Made by a program: the position numbers and the translations under genes. DNA of 64,000 nt, from positions 1-64,000 of the forward strand of contig JAJTID010000050.1 in the NCBI GenBank assembly GCA_021300155.1, written 5' to 3'. Source of the DNA: Pirellula sp. (GTDB taxonomy: Bacteria > Planctomycetota > Planctomycetia > Pirellulales > Pirellulaceae). Of this stretch, positions 40,809 to 49,148 are shown one piece after another. The notes below the pieces were generated by a model. The model saw only the letters and a list, made by a program, of their open reading frames with translations, did not search any database and was not told where the DNA came from. Position 1 is the first letter of the stretch, and each line of letters begins with the position of its first letter.

Positions 40809-41825
40809 CTACGAAACCTTCCAAGTGTCGCCACTCATGAAGAGTTTCTGAAGGTTCCCAGGTCCCTTCTTCGCGATTGCTTCGTCGATTTGGCCGCGGA
40901 CGGCTTCTTCGAAAGTCTCGCTTACCACGTCGCGGAAAACGCCGATCGGTTCAGGGAAGTGTGGATGTCGCATGCGTGACAACATGTAGACCAATGTCGA
41001 TGGCGCTTTTTCGTCATGGAACAACAAATCATCTTCCTTGATCTTGCCCTCTGCGAGATTGACGATTTCAAAATTGAATCCATTGAGGCGGATTCCTTTG
41101 TCGCGATCTTTGCCAAAGATCATCGGCTTGCCATGCTCTAGCTCGATGGTGGAATCATCGCGCGTCGCTTTATCTTGAGCGTATGCGAAAGCTCCATCGT
41201 TGAACACATTGCAGTTCTGGTAAACTTCGACGAACGACGTGCCTTTGTGGGCAGCAGCTCGCTTCAAAGTGTAGGCCAAATGCTTGACGTTGCTATCGAC
41301 CGATCTTGCGATAAAGGTCGCTTCGGCCCCAACCGCTACACTGATTGGATTGAGAGGGTGGTCGACAACCCCCATCGGTGTGCTCTTGGTCACTTGTCCT
41401 TCGACGCTCGTCGGTGAAAACTGTCCCTTGGTCAATCCATAGATTCGATTGTTGAACAATACGATGTTCAAATCGACGTTGCGGCGAAGCAAATGAATGA
41501 AGTGGTTTCCTCCGATACTCAACGCGTCGCCGTCACCCGTGATAACCCATACGCTCAAATCAGGACGAGTCAATTTGAGCCCTGTGGCGACCGCAGGAGC
41601 GCGCCCGTGGATGGAGTGAACCCCGTACGTATTCACATAGTATGGGAAACGACTGCTGCATCCGATCCCTGAAATGAAAACGGTCTTCTCCGGTGGAACA
41701 CCGATTTCAGGAAGCACCTTTTTCATTTGCGCGAGGATCGAATAATCTCCGCATCCAGGGCACCATCGAACATCCTGGTCGCTGGTGAAGTCGTCTGCTT
41801 TCAGTACAGGTAGTGCAATACTCAT
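40809..41825 (-). CDS. korB: 2-oxoacid:ferredoxin oxidoreductase subunit beta
   Basis: DVRWCPGCGDYSILAQ, GIGCSSRFPYYVNTYGVHSIHGRAPAVATGLKL, ITGDGDALSIGGNHFIHLLRRN. Confidence 0.95.
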   Translation of the reverse strand: MSIALPVLKADDFTSDQDVRWCPGCGDYSILAQMKKVLPEIGVPPEKTVFISGIGCSSRFPYYVNTYGVHSIHGRAPAVATGLKLTRPDLSVWVITGDGDALSIGGNHFIHLLRRNVDLNIVLFNNRIYGLTKGQFSPTSVEGQVTKSTPMGVVDHPLNPISVAVGAEATFIARSVDSNVKHLAYTLKRAAAHKGTSFVEVYQNCNVFNDGAFAYAQDKATRDDSTIELEHGKPMIFGKDRDKGIRLNGFNFEIVNLAEGKIKEDDLLFHDEKAPSTLVYMLSRMRHPHFPEPIGVFRDVVSETFEEAVRGQIDEAIAKKGPGNLQKLFMSGDTWKVS

Positions 41826-41915
41826 GGTCTTTGATTTATGTTGTTGAATCGGAAGTTGCTTTGAAGAAGCGACCGCAGCATTGGGTCGCTTTAAGATTGG
41901 CGGTCCAGTGATGCC

Positions 41916-43802
41916 TTAGGCTCTCGCTGGAGACCGCGAAGGGCTCTTGCTATGCTCATGGATCTTTTCCACAAGTTCTCGGACCGTAAATGGTTTGCCT
42001 TTGACTTTGTTGAAACCAACGGCGTCAACCAAATATCGGCTGCGAATCAACAGTCTCAATTGCCCCATGTTCAATTCTGGGATGAGGACGTTTTCGAATC
42101 GCGAGATGATCTCCCCTAGATTGCTTGGGAATGGGTTCATGTACCGAATATGAGCCAATGAGACACTGCGACCTTCCGCTTGTGCTTGTTGAACTGCGGT
42201 CAAGCAAGCGCCGTAGGTGCCACCCCACGAGATCACTAACAGATCGCCACTTTGCGGTCCAATAACTTGTTGCGGAGGTAAAAGCTTGGCTGCATTCGCG
42301 ACCTTTTGTGCACGAATGTTCACCATCTTTTGGTGGTTGTCCGGGTCGTAGCTGATGTTGCCGGTGCCGTCTTCTTTTTCCAAACCGCCGACACGATGCA
42401 TCAGTCCCTCTGTCCCAGGGATTGCCCACGGGCGAGCGAGAAGTTCATCACGCATGTAAGGCTTGAATGGCCCATCGGGATTATTGTTGTGTTCGGGATG
42501 ATTGACGGGTATCGGAGCCAATTTCGAAACATCAGGGATCGGCCATGGCTCTGCACCGTTTGCAATGTACCCGTCGGATAACACAATGACGGGCAACATC
42601 AACTTCGTGGCCAACATCCATGCTTCCTGAACGATTTCAAAACAATCGCCAGGGCTTTGTGCGGCCAAGACTGGCAATGGAGCCTCACCGTTCCGTCCAA
42701 ACATGACTTGCAACAAGTCCGCTTGTTCCGTTTTTGTAGGTAGCCCCGTGCTAGGGCCGCCACGTTGAACATCGATTACCAGCATTGGAAGCTCTAGCAT
42801 CAATGCTAGGCCCATCGCTTCTGCTTTTAGCGCGATGCCTGGACCACTCGACGTCGTGACCGCCATTTTGCCGCCATAGGCTGCACCAATCGCGGAGCAA
42901 ACCGCAGCGATTTCGTCTTCTGCCTGGAAGGTGCAAACGCCGAAATTCTTGAACTTTGCAAGCTCATGAAGAATATCGCTGGCAGGCGTAATCGGATACG
43001 TTCCGTAGAACATCTCCTTGCCAGAACGTTGGGCGGCAGTCATGAGGCCCCAAGCCATGGCTTGATTGCCCATAATATTTCGATAGGTACCAGGCGGTAG
43101 CTTTGCAGGTTCAATGCTATACGAATGACCGATCCCTTCGATGGTTTCGCCAAAGGCCCAGCCAGAGCGAAGGGCTTTTTCATTCGCTTGTGCAATGACG
43201 GACTTCCCGTCACCGAACTTGCCATGAATGAATCGCAACGTAGCATCCATGTTGCGACCGTACAACCAATAGACCAGTCCCATGGCAAAGAAGTTTTTGC
43301 AACGGTCCGCTTCTTTGACACTTAGCCCAAACTCCGCGACGGCCTCTTTCGTGAGGCGAGTCATCGGCACTTTGATCAATCGATAGTTTTCCATCGCCGG
43401 CTCTTCGAGTGGACTCGTCTTGAGCTTAGCCAGCTTTAGATCTTTGTCTTCGAAACTATCTTCGTTGACGATCAGCAACCCGCCTTTGGGCAGATCCGCC
43501 AAGTTTGTTACGAGTGCCGCTGGATTCATGGCCACCAATGCATCCAACGTGTCACCAGGTGTATGCACCTCGTGTGAAGCGAACTGCACTTGAAATCCAG
43601 ACACGCCCGCACGCGTACCGCGCGGAGCCCGAATCTCGGCCGGAAAATCCGGGAACGTTGCAACGTCATTCCCGAGCAAGGCAGATGTGTTTGTTAATTG
43701 CGTGCCCAAAAGTTGCATACCGTCGCCTGAGTCACCAACCAATCGTACGGTGATCCCTTGTACAGGCTTAACAGGCTTATTCAAAGTCGCTTCTGTAGTC
43801 AT
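41916..43802 (-). CDS. korA: 2-oxoacid:ferredoxin oxidoreductase subunit alpha (gamma-alpha fusion)
   Basis: N-terminal gamma domain VRLVGDSGDGMQLLGTQL; alpha domain GNQAMAWGLMTAAQRSGKEMFYGTYPITPASDILHELA; directly upstream of korB. Confidence 0.95.
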   Translation of the reverse strand: MTTEATLNKPVKPVQGITVRLVGDSGDGMQLLGTQLTNTSALLGNDVATFPDFPAEIRAPRGTRAGVSGFQVQFASHEVHTPGDTLDALVAMNPAALVTNLADLPKGGLLIVNEDSFEDKDLKLAKLKTSPLEEPAMENYRLIKVPMTRLTKEAVAEFGLSVKEADRCKNFFAMGLVYWLYGRNMDATLRFIHGKFGDGKSVIAQANEKALRSGWAFGETIEGIGHSYSIEPAKLPPGTYRNIMGNQAMAWGLMTAAQRSGKEMFYGTYPITPASDILHELAKFKNFGVCTFQAEDEIAAVCSAIGAAYGGKMAVTTSSGPGIALKAEAMGLALMLELPMLVIDVQRGGPSTGLPTKTEQADLLQVMFGRNGEAPLPVLAAQSPGDCFEIVQEAWMLATKLMLPVIVLSDGYIANGAEPWPIPDVSKLAPIPVNHPEHNNNPDGPFKPYMRDELLARPWAIPGTEGLMHRVGGLEKEDGTGNISYDPDNHQKMVNIRAQKVANAAKLLPPQQVIGPQSGDLLVISWGGTYGACLTAVQQAQAEGRSVSLAHIRYMNPFPSNLGEIISRFENVLIPELNMGQLRLLIRSRYLVDAVGFNKVKGKPFTVRELVEKIHEHSKSPSRSPARA

Positions 43803-44134: not shown

Positions 44135-45478
44135 ATGAGTCGTACTAATGTCTGTGCCGTGATCTTTATTGTTACCTCTCTGTTTTCATTGGGGGCAAAT
44201 GCTTTTGGACAGTCCCGCGAAGAGAAGGTTCGAAACGACCGGCTCCGAGTTTCGAAATCTGGACTTTGGCACTACAACGATTTAGATGCTGGTTTCGCAG
44301 AAGCTCTTCGAACGAACAAGCCGTTGATGGTCGTCTTTCGATGCATACCATGCGTCGAATGTGTCAAACTGGATGACGATCTGTTGGAACAGAACGATTC
44401 GGTAGTCGAGTCGATGCGTAAATTCGTTCGTGTCCGACAAATCTCCACCAACGGCATCGACCTGAATCGGTACCAATTCGACTTTGATCAATCGTTTTCG
44501 GTAATGTTCTTTCATCCAGACGGTACGTTGCTGGGGCGATTCGGAACCAGATCCCACCAAACCGAATGGGAAGACGACGTTTCGATTGCTGGCCTTGGAG
44601 CAGCCATGAAACAAGTTCTCGAATGGCATGCGAATTTCGACTCCGTTCGCGACTCGCTCGCAAAAAAGCAATCGTCTAACCTGAAGCACATTCCGGTCGG
44701 ATCACCCGAGAAGTATCCCACGCTTGAACGGTTTCCCGCGAGTTTTGATCTAGCGAACGTCACGATCAAGAACTGCATCCATTGCCATCAAGTGGGGGAA
44801 GCTCAAAAGTCGTTCGCATGGAGCGAGAGCGAAATGGAATCTATCCCTATGGATTTGTTGTTCCCCTACCCGCATCCAAAAATCCTAGGACTGATATTCG
44901 ACGTGAACACCTGTGCGACAGTAAAAGAAGTAGCCGAGGATTCGATAGCACATCGCGCTGGATTGAAAGCCGGCGATCGGATTGTACGATTCGATGACCA
45001 ACCGATTATCAGCATTGCAGACCTGCAATGGGTGCTAAATCTGAAACCTAACACTGACATCGCAATTCCAGTATCGCTTCTCCGCGATGGTAAACCGATG
45101 ACCGTTTCATTGAGTTTGCCAGACGACTGGAAAGCCTTGGGGGATATCTCTTGGCGTGCCTCTAGCTGGGAGCTTCGAAGACTGGTGTTGGGTGGCATGG
45201 TCTTAAAGGAAATCGACAAAAGCGAACGGCAAAACCTCGGCATCGCTGATGAAGCCACGGCATTGAGAATCGGGCACGTCGGCCAATACTCCCCGCACAA
45301 CCGCGCAAAGCTAGCAGGCCTTCAAAAAGACGATGTGGTTGTTAGCGTGCTCGGCAAAAAGAACTTCATGCGCGAAGTCGATATCATCCGATTCCTTCTC
45401 GATCAACGCCACACCGTGAAGCAAATTCCAATTGAGGTGTTGCGAGCTGGCAAACCGATGACTTTCGAACTGAATTGA
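44135..45478 (+). CDS. Thioredoxin-like / c-type heme motif / tandem PDZ protein
   Basis: CIPCVEC in a thioredoxin-like region; CIHCH; two PDZ-like regions (AHRAGLKAGDRIVRFDDQPI, HNRAKLAGLQKDDVVVSVLGK); signal peptide. Confidence 0.82.
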   Translation: MSRTNVCAVIFIVTSLFSLGANAFGQSREEKVRNDRLRVSKSGLWHYNDLDAGFAEALRTNKPLMVVFRCIPCVECVKLDDDLLEQNDSVVESMRKFVRVRQISTNGIDLNRYQFDFDQSFSVMFFHPDGTLLGRFGTRSHQTEWEDDVSIAGLGAAMKQVLEWHANFDSVRDSLAKKQSSNLKHIPVGSPEKYPTLERFPASFDLANVTIKNCIHCHQVGEAQKSFAWSESEMESIPMDLLFPYPHPKILGLIFDVNTCATVKEVAEDSIAHRAGLKAGDRIVRFDDQPIISIADLQWVLNLKPNTDIAIPVSLLRDGKPMTVSLSLPDDWKALGDISWRASSWELRRLVLGGMVLKEIDKSERQNLGIADEATALRIGHVGQYSPHNRAKLAGLQKDDVVVSVLGKKNFMREVDIIRFLLDQRHTVKQIPIEVLRAGKPMTFELN

Positions 45479-45486
45479 TCTAGGTT

Positions 45487-46893
45487 CTAGGCGACGCCGA
45501 GTAATTGATTCAGGGCTTCTCGAAGAGTCGGGGCGCGAAAAGCAAAACCTTCCGCGAGCAATCGTTTTGGCAGAGCTCGCGTGCTTGCAAAGAGTAATGG
45601 GTCCGCCATCTCACCGATCAACAGCCGAATTGGGGCCTTGGGAGCAGGAAGAATCGTTGGGCGTTTCAACACACTTCCCAATGTTTTGGTAAAGTCGCGA
45701 TTGGTTAACGACTCGGGTGCAACCAAGTTGTATGGACCGGTAGACTCTGGATTTATCGCCAAATGCAAGAACGCCGAAGCGGCATCATCCACATGAATCC
45801 AACTCCAATACTGCTTTCCTGAACCAACAATGCCACCCAATCCAAATTGGAACAGAGGTAGCATTTTGGATAGGGCCCCCTCCAAAGGATGCAGTACCAT
45901 GCCTAGCCTGCCGACCACTGCTCGCCGCCCTTTGTTCGCATATCGAAACGTTTCCGATTCCCATTGCTGGGCAAGCTCTGGCAAGAAACCTGTCCCGGCT
46001 TTGTGATCTTCATTGCAAACCGCGTCATCGCAGTCTCCATAAAGTCCAACACCAGAAGCAGCCACCAAAGCGCGAGGTGGATTTTCCAGACGAAGCAGAT
46101 GCTCGACTAAATGCCTTGTTCCTTCAACGCGACTCGAACGTATCAGCTCTTTCGTATCCGCTGACCATCGACGGGTTGCGATCCCGAACCCAGCCAAATG
46201 AATAACAGCATCGATCCCATCGAGAATTTTCGGGTTATCAAATCCATGCTTCGCGTCGAACACAACAGATTCGAGGGGGAGTTCGCTTGTGGACTGAGTC
46301 GATTTCGATGCAGTCCTTTGAACGCGGATGACTCGAAATCCCAAGACGCTCGCCAGCGCGCAAAGCCTGCGACCAATCATTCCGGTTGCACCCGTTACAG
46401 CAATGGTCGACCCTTCTTTGCTCCCGCCTCGCAACCCTTGAAGTGAATTGTAAAGCTTCAAATCCTGTTCGGTCGTTTGATGACGATAACGGAACATGGA
46501 TTCCACTTTCGATCGAATGAAACCAGCCGTTAGCCAATCCAATGGCCCTGGAAATTTCGAACGAAAATCGACACGATCAGTCAGCTTCGAGTGTCGATCG
46601 TCTATCGCGTCAAACAAATGGTCGTGAACCCACTTCGAGAATGGTCCAGAGAGCTGGATGTCCTGGAAATGGGACGGAGGATCAAAGATCGTGTGCTCCG
46701 CGTTCCATCGCACTGGTACGGGGCCGATTTTATTTTGAATCGAAACCCGTGTGCCAACCGCCAAAGAGCCCCCACGCTGAAGCATCCTCACGGATTCCCA
46801 AGGTGGTATCAGTCTATCTATCGCGCCCGGTCGGGCGTGATAATCAAAGAGAGTCTGCTGCGAGACTGGTACAATCGTAGAGTACTCAAACAA
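45487..46893 (-). CDS. SRPBCC domain fused to TIGR01777-family SDR epimerase (YfcH-like)
   Basis: N-terminal MFEYSTIVPVSQQTLFDYHARPGAIDRLIPPWE; then IAVTGATGMIGRRLCALA, NPPRALVAASGVGLYGD, PKRLLAEGFAFRAPTLREAL; TTG start 1 bp after the sigma factor stop. Confidence 0.9.
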   Translation of the reverse strand: MFEYSTIVPVSQQTLFDYHARPGAIDRLIPPWESVRMLQRGGSLAVGTRVSIQNKIGPVPVRWNAEHTIFDPPSHFQDIQLSGPFSKWVHDHLFDAIDDRHSKLTDRVDFRSKFPGPLDWLTAGFIRSKVESMFRYRHQTTEQDLKLYNSLQGLRGGSKEGSTIAVTGATGMIGRRLCALASVLGFRVIRVQRTASKSTQSTSELPLESVVFDAKHGFDNPKILDGIDAVIHLAGFGIATRRWSADTKELIRSSRVEGTRHLVEHLLRLENPPRALVAASGVGLYGDCDDAVCNEDHKAGTGFLPELAQQWESETFRYANKGRRAVVGRLGMVLHPLEGALSKMLPLFQFGLGGIVGSGKQYWSWIHVDDAASAFLHLAINPESTGPYNLVAPESLTNRDFTKTLGSVLKRPTILPAPKAPIRLLIGEMADPLLFASTRALPKRLLAEGFAFRAPTLREALNQLLGVA

Positions 46894-46894
46894 C

Positions 46895-47950
46895 CTAGTC
46901 TTCCATTTCTGGGAGCGGCGCGACGGATGTCATCCCTCGGAGCTTGTCCAAAGCGCGCTTCTCCAATTGTCGGATTCGCTCCTTGGATACACCAAGGACA
47001 TCCGCAAGTTTCTGCAACGTTTGCACTTTGCGATGACCACCCAGTGAAAAACGTGCACGTATGATGAGCTTCTCTCGACGATCGAGATGATCCAGCATGA
47101 AGGAAAGTTTCGATCTCAGATCGTTCCATCTTCCCTCGCTCATCGAGGAGTTCTTTTGATCCTCGGTGAAGTCCATCCCCGACTCGTGAATGCTCGCAAT
47201 GTTTCGTTGACGCTCTTTTTGCTTTTCCATCACCTTGCGATACGTGTTGCGTCGCACGACCTGAGTCGCATAGGTGCTGAATCGAAAACCAAGTCCAACA
47301 TCAAACTTCTCGACAGCCTTGATCAAGGCAACGATACCATCGCTCAGCAAATCGTCGAATACATTGTTCGCGTTAACGAATTTCTTCACGATCGAAATGA
47401 CCAATCGCATATTGGACTTCACCAAGCAATCTCGATGCCAATCGGCTGCGTGTAGCAAACCGTCGATACGTCGGAGTAGCCATTCATCTGGGCTCTCAAG
47501 ATCGATCTTTGACTTCAGTTGGTTGGCACGGAATCGAAGAAAGTTCATCCGTGCGAAAAGAGCTTTCTCCTCATTCGGAGTCAGTAACTTTGTTTCGCAA
47601 AGTCTTGCCAAATGGGAGGGGAGGTCAGGTGTCTTCGCAGTCTTTCCTCCTGCTTCTTCGCAGCCCGTTCCAAGAAGGATATCGCCCAGAATTTCGGCCT
47701 CAGCACCAGGCTCAGAAAAGCTTGGGCTCGCGATGAACTCTAATTCGGTGGACAGAAGTTTCTTCGCATGAGCGTTCAGTTCTGCGGAGTCCTTCACGCA
47801 GGGGCTTGTGGCTTGGATAAATTGGACAAAGGAGCTTTCGACTGCTGCACGTCGAAAAGTACGCGCTAATTTCTTAGAAGTTTCTTTGCTTGTTACGGAC
47901 TTCTTGCGGTTCGCCGTCTTTTTTATTGCTGGGGGGCATTTTGTTGTCAT
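46895..47950 (-). CDS. Sigma-70 family RNA polymerase sigma factor (non-canonical region 2.4)
   Basis: SNMRLVISIVKKFVNANNVFDDLLSDGIVALIKAVEKFDVGLGFRFSTYATQVVRRNTYR; region 4 LQKLADVLGVSKERIRQLEKRALDKLR; ATG 47950 preferred to 48049. Confidence 0.92.
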   Translation of the reverse strand: MTTKCPPAIKKTANRKKSVTSKETSKKLARTFRRAAVESSFVQFIQATSPCVKDSAELNAHAKKLLSTELEFIASPSFSEPGAEAEILGDILLGTGCEEAGGKTAKTPDLPSHLARLCETKLLTPNEEKALFARMNFLRFRANQLKSKIDLESPDEWLLRRIDGLLHAADWHRDCLVKSNMRLVISIVKKFVNANNVFDDLLSDGIVALIKAVEKFDVGLGFRFSTYATQVVRRNTYRKVMEKQKERQRNIASIHESGMDFTEDQKNSSMSEGRWNDLRSKLSFMLDHLDRREKLIIRARFSLGGHRKVQTLQKLADVLGVSKERIRQLEKRALDKLRGMTSVAPLPEMED

Positions 47951-47985
47951 GACCAACCTGTTCCTGTAATGGATTACGAATTGCC

Positions 47986-48204
47986 TGAACGTTTTATCGG
48001 TCAACGACCATTCGAATCGTTCAAATCGTTCACGAGAACTGTTATACAAGTCGAACTTCCTGGAAGCAAGGGTTGCTAAATCGAAAACTCAGAAAGAATC
48101 TAGCTTTTGTTTTCCAAGGAAATTTGCCAATTTTGAGGAAAAAACTGAATCCAGGAAAGAAGTGATGCCTATACTGTCGACAGCGGTGCAATTGAACGTT
48201 TTAT
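47986..48204. promoter_or_regulatory. Divergent regulatory region with two 12-bp TGAACGTTTTAT copies (47986-47997, 48193-48204) and a 9-bp tandem AATCGTTCA x2 (48015-48032)
   Basis: Direct reading of the intergenic region between the sigma factor and the MerR/B12-like regulator. Confidence 0.45.
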
Positions 48205-48230
48205 TACCAACTGGACGATTTGGACGTTTT

Positions 48231-49148
48231 GTGGAAGACAGCTTTACCCCCAAACAGGTTGCAACAGCTCTTCAGGTCAGCGAATCCTCTGTAAAAAGAT
48301 GGTGCGACCGTGGCGTTATACGAACGGACCGAACGCTCGGCGGCCACCGCAGGATCCCCCTTGAGAATCTCATGGAGTTTCTGGAGTCCACGAATCGCCG
48401 GGTACTGGACCCAAAAGCCATAGGCCTGGCCTTGAATTCCAAGCTGCCGAGCGCGGAGGGTGTCGAGATTGCGCCGATCAACCTTGCTGAGCAGGCTGCA
48501 CTTCGAGAACGTTTTGAACGATCTGTTGTTTCTGGCAATGAACCAGATGCCAGACGTGTTATCAGCCAATGGTACGCATCGACAGGAAGCGTCGTCTCTG
48601 TAGCAGATGATCTTTTGGCGCCAACGTTTGCGTCGATCGGGCACTTATGGCAATGTGGCGAACTCGAGATATATCAAGAAAGAAGGGGTTGCGAGATTTG
48701 CATGCGACTGGTGCACGAGCTTCGACGCCTTCTCCCCGAACCGACCGGTGCGGCACCATTGGCAATGGGTGGAACTGCAGCGGGAGATCAGTATCAAATG
48801 CCAACGCAGCTAATCGATCTGGTCTTTCGAGAGAACGGCTGGCGATCTGAAAACTTGGGATGCGATCTTCCCTTTTCCAGTATGCTTTCCGCTGCGAGGA
48901 AGCATATGCCAAAGATCTTTTGGTTAAGCATCTCTCATGTAAGGGACGAATCGCAATTCATCGTCGATTGCGATCATTTCGCCAAGCAACTGCCGAAAGG
49001 AATATTGCTTGTAATTGGTGGGCACGCGTTGCACGAAGGACTTCGCCGAAAGCTTACGTACTCGTCGCACTGTGATAACATGAATCAGTTAGCGACCTTA
49101 GCAAGAACGATTCGTTCCTCTTCACCGCCAGCATCCGGTCAGATCTGA
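48231..49148 (+). CDS. CarH/LitR-like MerR-type regulator with degenerate B12-binding-like domain
   Basis: FTPKQVATALQVSESSVKRWCDRGVIRTDRTLGGHRRIPLENLMEFL; C-terminal W-x9-ER and GDQYQMP...FRENGWRSENLGCDLPFSSML align with W-x9-EH and xHxxG of B12 folds; GTG 48231 proposed within ORF 48162..49148. Confidence 0.8.
   Translation: MEDSFTPKQVATALQVSESSVKRWCDRGVIRTDRTLGGHRRIPLENLMEFLESTNRRVLDPKAIGLALNSKLPSAEGVEIAPINLAEQAALRERFERSVVSGNEPDARRVISQWYASTGSVVSVADDLLAPTFASIGHLWQCGELEIYQERRGCEICMRLVHELRRLLPEPTGAAPLAMGGTAAGDQYQMPTQLIDLVFRENGWRSENLGCDLPFSSMLSAARKHMPKIFWLSISHVRDESQFIVDCDHFAKQLPKGILLVIGGHALHEGLRRKLTYSSHCDNMNQLATLARTIRSSSPPASGQI

Follow-up and report, generated by a model that had tools for sequence, protein, structure and literature searches.

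A candidate photo-oxidative stress module in Pirellula and other Planctomycetes, with a CarH-fold regulator of altered B12 pocket and a sigma factor without region 3

In Streptomyces coelicolor, a MerR-B12 type regulator, LitR, adjoins a sigma factor for light-induced genes, and that factor, LitS, is an ECF sigma that drives carotenoid genes. The planctomycete module described here likewise has a regulator of the MerR-B12 type next to a sigma factor, and no carotenoid genes were seen among its recurrent neighbors. CarH and the class I LitR proteins (Thermus, Myxococcus), along with CtMerR (PDB 8JBS), share with our regulator a MerR-type DNA-binding domain, a helix bundle and a Rossmann B12 fold. 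CarH is defined by a Wx9EH plus an E/DxH motif, and the operator of the Thermus protein consists of 11-bp repeats (PMC8156234). The class II LitR proteins of Pseudomonas (PplR/PmlR2) are LitR-like repressors, thought not to bind B12, that have lost the Rossmann domain and keep only a 4-helix bundle; their regulon includes the photolyase gene phrB and ufaM (PMC9758184). BldC of Streptomyces has only 68 residues and no effector domain, and its protomers bind 9-bp direct repeats with the consensus AATTxxxxC (PMC5859096). In the RpoE-ChrR (ECF11) response to singlet oxygen, a sigma factor is tied to photolyase and to furan-fatty-acid genes, the latter being part of the core sigmaE-ChrR regulon (PMC6852236). 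For the planctomycetes, we found no described regulator of a light or singlet-oxygen response in open PMC papers.

The window, a 64,000-nucleotide stretch of a Pirellula contig, contains three open reading frames that an initial annotation had described as a sigma-70 gene 1 bp away from an SRPBCC-TIGR01777 fusion, with a regulator transcribed divergently. The reading frames and their domains confirm this arrangement, and the features used below are as follows.

45487..46893, minus strand: fusion of an SRPBCC domain and a TIGR01777 epimerase; the gene lies 1 bp past the sigma stop codon
46895..47950, minus strand: sigma-70 family factor, likely start ATG 47950 (open reading frame 46895-48049)
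48015..48032, minus strand: predicted operator, a 9-bp direct repeat in tandem, TGAACGATT TGAACGATT; no other exact copy occurs in the genome
48041..48046, minus strand: TATAAC, predicted as the -10 box for the sigma gene, 8 bp upstream of the operator; TATAA in most congeners
48064..48069, minus strand: TTGCTT, a weak predicted -35 box, 17 bp upstream of the -10 box
48193..48229, plus strand: imperfect repeats TGAACGTTT (48193), TGGACGATT (48212) and TGGACGTTT (48221), just before the regulator start
48231..49148, plus strand: MerR/B12-fold regulator, likely start GTG 48231 (open reading frame 48162-49148)

The regulator probably starts at GTG 48231, since homology begins at about residue 24 of the reading frame and, in several congeners, the frame is not open further upstream. 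The sigma gene probably starts at ATG 47950, because the first 33 codons of its reading frame run through the operator repeats; the apparent upstream peptide is read-through of these regulatory sequences, with ERFERF corresponding to GAACGATTTGAACGATTC. The sigma gene and the fusion gene probably form one operon. Two other genes lie nearby: 44135-45478 encodes an all-Cys form of the Trx7/PDZ domain-containing (seleno)protein family NF041199 (361 bits against a cut-off of 300), and 40809-43802 encodes a two-subunit 2-oxoacid:ferredoxin oxidoreductase (TPP_enzyme_C; POR and POR_N domains).

We think it probable, at roughly 0.7, that the module is a repressor-sigma switch for photo-oxidative stress, similar to LitR and CarH in its working and using BldC-like 9-bp repeats. 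The regulator would bind head-to-tail on (TGAACGWTT)2 just after the sigma -10 box, keeping the sigma gene off, and binding to the weaker repeats at its own start would provide autoregulation. Exposure to light or singlet oxygen would release the regulator, allowing the sigma factor and the SRPBCC-TIGR01777 enzyme to be made, with the AdoCbl photochemistry of CarH presumably lost. In other genera, the same predicted operator is found at furan-fatty-acid genes (ufaD/ufaO/ufaM-like) and fasciclin. The sigma factor would then drive further photoprotective genes. Of this picture, the sequences show the gene set, the operator as a conserved element, its company with sigma genes both linked and unlinked, the remodeled pocket and the fold; repression, the nature of the signal, the loss of AdoCbl photochemistry and the sigma regulon are inferred.

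Profile searches assign to the regulator an HTH_17 domain, a B12-binding_2 domain and a sub-threshold B12-binding domain, and it is built of a BldC-like winged helix-turn-helix (BldC family model, 1.5e-10; PDB 6ama is related), a helix bundle and a Rossmann domain. The nearest solved structure, by both sequence and fold, is the AdoCbl photoreceptor CtMerR (Foldseek E 3e-16, the query being an AF2 model with a mean pLDDT of 86.8), and the predicted structure also matches CarH. In the window the pocket reads Wx9ER and GDQY, as opposed to the Wx9EH and E/DxH of CarH. Across 115 regulators, the tryptophan is present in 113 and the glutamate and aspartate in all 115; Arg occupies the position of the Wx9EH histidine in 114 (His in one), Tyr occupies that of the lower-ligand histidine in 106 (His in none), and the last position of ERRxC is Cys in 109. 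The CtMerR row in the pocket alignment and tree was copied from its printed sequence-match alignment. The initial annotation was right that the pocket is altered, and the alteration is clade-wide; its suggestion that the protein had drifted does not hold up, as the pocket has an alternative form that is fixed across the order. By the published definition (PMC8156234), and judging from these motifs, the regulator falls outside CarH, although its way of working may be similar.

Regulators from other planctomycete classes keep EH, mostly with GDxY, and form a well-supported group on the midpoint-rooted tree, so DxY is widely shared and ER marks the window's class and some others. One genome (G036) has a second MerR-B12 protein (L113:6969-8099) that keeps W, EH and ExH; thus canonical-looking CarH proteins coexist with the altered family. 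The G172 regulator (L330:8040-9035) has EH and GDAH and sits in a module of the same kind (SRPBCC-SDR, photolyase-like). We considered this protein (G172a on the tree) as an ancestral B12-binding form and found no support for that, since it is nested among Tyr members, and the EH and GDAH are probably a secondary change. Duplicated regulators occur in G212 (L322), in tandem and with the pocket residues gone from the second copy, and in G105 (L328), adjacent and in opposite orientation.

Several views of what this pocket senses can be weighed. Tentatively, the E-R-R-x-C ... G-D-x-Y pocket might accommodate some other chromophore or ligand (a tetrapyrrole ligated by Tyr/Arg, a bilin or an oxidized lipid) or might read singlet oxygen through its Cys or Tyr. 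It is rather doubtful that the domain works without a chromophore, the repressor being released by a partner protein or by direct oxidation. There are precedents in class II LitR with a LOV protein (PMC9758184) and in CarA with CarS (PMC8156234), and the conserved Cys would suit direct oxidation, but there is no recurrent adjacent photoreceptor or antirepressor gene among the neighbors, and the charged residues of the pocket (E, R, D and Y) are so strongly conserved as to suggest a ligand. We also regard it as unlikely that the regulator has remained an AdoCbl photoreceptor in which Tyr, water or nothing serves as the lower ligand and light breaks the Co-C bond as in CarH. The fold match to CtMerR and CarH and the retention of W, Glu and GxxxP in nearly all of the 115 proteins favor this view, as does the evidence from CtMerR that the light state can vary (PMC11796333); against it, the histidines of the two motifs that define CarH (PMC8156234) are almost entirely replaced.

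On the other side of the proposed switch, the sigma factor has Sigma70_r2 and r4 domains and no region 3 according to Pfam, with a short linker family-wide. The trait of Group 1-3 sigma-70 factors, a region 3 between regions 2 and 4, is therefore absent here. ECF (group 4) sigma factors have regions 2 and 4 only and no region 1.2; Pfam recognizes just those two regions here, but the SigA alignments reach upstream from residue 137 and there is a conserved stretch that resembles region 1.2. Region 2.4, previously noted as looking altered, does differ from that of SigA (WW to QV, Q to R and T to Y), and the changes are clade-wide. Apart from the tryptophan pair, the altered residues are those with which sigma-70 region 2.4 reads position -12. 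The E. coli RpoD row in our alignment serves as a guide only; the statements about regions 2.4 and 3 rest on Pfam and the SigA alignment. Like the sigma factor of the RpoE-ChrR system, this one is associated with furan-fatty-acid genes and photolyase, but by its anatomy it does not appear to be an ECF factor, and it appears to be under a transcriptional repressor; we found no ChrR-like anti-sigma among the recurrent neighbors. The fusion protein contains Polyketide_cyc, Epimerase and DUF1731 domains in the profile search and clears the TIGR01777 cut-off (272.9 against 207.35 bits). Some genomes have a second sigma factor of the same type (L076/L148 in G032, L254, L257 and L269), the one in G032 being 2 kb from a DUF1365 gene and without an operator.

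Recurrent partners of the module are a class II CPD photolyase (PDB matches of ~1e-75), an AmOx-DUF1365-CMAS-DUF1295-CMAS operon and fasciclin. In furan-fatty-acid synthesis, DUF1365 corresponds to the UfaO family (PMC7380195), and by family resemblance AmOx is UfaD-like and CMAS is UfaM-like. In view of the LitR and ChrR precedents, the photolyase and the furan-fatty-acid operon make the module's output look photoprotective. The initial annotation had suggested a drift away from B12 photosensing; these neighbors and operator targets (photolyase, furan-fatty-acid genes related to singlet oxygen, and fasciclin) speak against the module having left light biology. In the window's own genus the ufa operon is absent and the photolyase is unlinked and has no operator, so the link to light depends on the relatives. 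Upstream of photolyase genes we found neither an operator with a convincing score nor a motif in common. In G049 (L197), a spacing of 79 bp separates a class II photolyase from a TIGR01777 gene of the same strand, which is another connection of TIGR01777 to light repair.

It is improbable that the signal is neither light nor singlet oxygen but, say, membrane stress or oxidative stress in general, with the photolyase as an incidental neighbor. Fasciclin and fatty-acid genes would suit envelope stress, and a genus without the ufa operon fits with this, but the photolyase adjoins the regulator or the sigma gene in several families and in other classes, and ufa genes are a hallmark of the singlet-oxygen response (PMC6852236).

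The proposed repressor-sigma switch presupposes that regulator and sigma factor belong together. The initial annotation had named co-conservation in relatives as a refutation test, and the link survives in our survey of 60 relatives, including 27 congeneric genomes. The trio is adjacent in 25 of the 27 congeners; in one of the others (G016) it is split at contig ends, and the remaining genome (G004, 83% complete) has no trio. Reading all 60 by eye, we found a non-RpoD sigma factor in 44 genomes, every one of which also has the regulator (44/44), while 12 of the 16 genomes without such a sigma factor lack the regulator as well. The arrangement is far beyond chance. The SRPBCC-TIGR01777 protein is a frequent, but not universal, partner.

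The predicted operator, with tandem 9-bp direct repeats (TGAACGWTT)2 as its consensus, strengthens a regulator-sigma link that had previously been drawn from arrangement only, as it stays with sigma genes that are unlinked from the regulator. Words resembling TGAACGATT (<=2 mismatches) occur 259 times upstream of the regulator in 26 congeners, where 81 would be expected, and they show a strong 9-bp period. The scoring of operators was set up with the genus sites already in view; named loci, phylum loci and unlinked sites were scored afterwards, with no change except in threshold (15 or 16). The order-level loci gave 52 matches (0 in reversed-sequence controls) and 80 named loci gave 109 occurrences (0 in controls), and the operator also recurs in loci of other planctomycete classes. 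Among loci with a divergent sigma gene, 53 of 56 have it, as do 4/4 with a divergent fasciclin gene; with neither gene it occurs in 1 of 17, and a contig end truncates this single locus. In eight genomes (G033, G035, G038, G042, G057, G039, G172 and G318) it precedes a sigma gene unlinked from the regulator, whereas it is missing at sigma paralogues that are more distant, namely the second copies of G030, G032, G035 and G039. Perfect sites in a whole-genome scan of 34 genomes are found at regulator loci or, when unlinked, before module genes: fasciclin (G041, G090, G104, G172), sigma (G035, G039, G172) and a desaturase-AmOx operon (G138). At the G277 locus, where no sigma gene was seen, the operator directly precedes an AmOx-DUF1365-CMAS operon. 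Conserved synteny without regulation is thus scarcely credible: close relatives can keep gene order without function, but this association holds across families and orders, and the operator accompanies the sigma gene to unlinked sites.

Several genera have two operator pairs about 55-60 bp apart before the sigma gene (L083:9812-9887, L109:5843-5919, L146:8460-8535 and L093:9417-9489), as if two arrays were bound together. We looked for further operator targets in the window's own genome; the other near matches examined fall within coding sequence or at start codons. A generic sigma-70 promoter scan gave no match at the sigma gene, so the -35/-10 call depends on conservation within the genus and is weak outside it. 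Inspection by eye of operator-free regulator intergenic regions for a sigma-dependent promoter gave nothing convincing, and no motif for promoters read by the sigma factor emerged. The position of the predicted operator after the -10 box fits repression, and activation would also be possible. The imperfect repeats before the regulator start suggest possible autoregulation.

The operator also helps to place the regulator within the switch we favor among known families. As with CarH and class I LitR, there is a (predicted) direct-repeat operator and photoprotective targets, but the repeat is a 9-bp TGAACGWTT and not the 11-bp nAnnTnnACAn of CarH, and the partnered sigma factor has no sigma3. Class II LitR is similar in its photolyase and UfaM regulon; our regulator does not belong there, because its Rossmann domain is intact, with conserved residues. 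Nor is it a BldC, since it carries a sensor-like C-terminal domain of B12-like fold and has different targets, although the winged helix-turn-helix is related and the operator repeat in the BldC frame, GATTTGAAC, may be set beside AATTxxxxC. We regard it as a new variation on the CarH/LitR theme.

The module provides a candidate regulator for the planctomycetes with a named, predicted operator and predicted targets, and it is present in cultured organisms such as Adhaeretor mobilis, Stieleria, Rhodopirellula and Roseimaritima. In this CarH-fold protein both B12 signature motifs are replaced by other fixed residues while the apparently photoprotective outputs are kept, which makes the range of signal change in CarH-type sensors directly testable. 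If the pocket does hold another chromophore or ligand, or reads singlet oxygen itself, the regulator would represent a new class of sensor built on the CarH scaffold. Such a class would have a 9-bp operator code of its own and would control a photo-oxidative regulon in planctomycetes by way of a sigma factor that has no sigma3.
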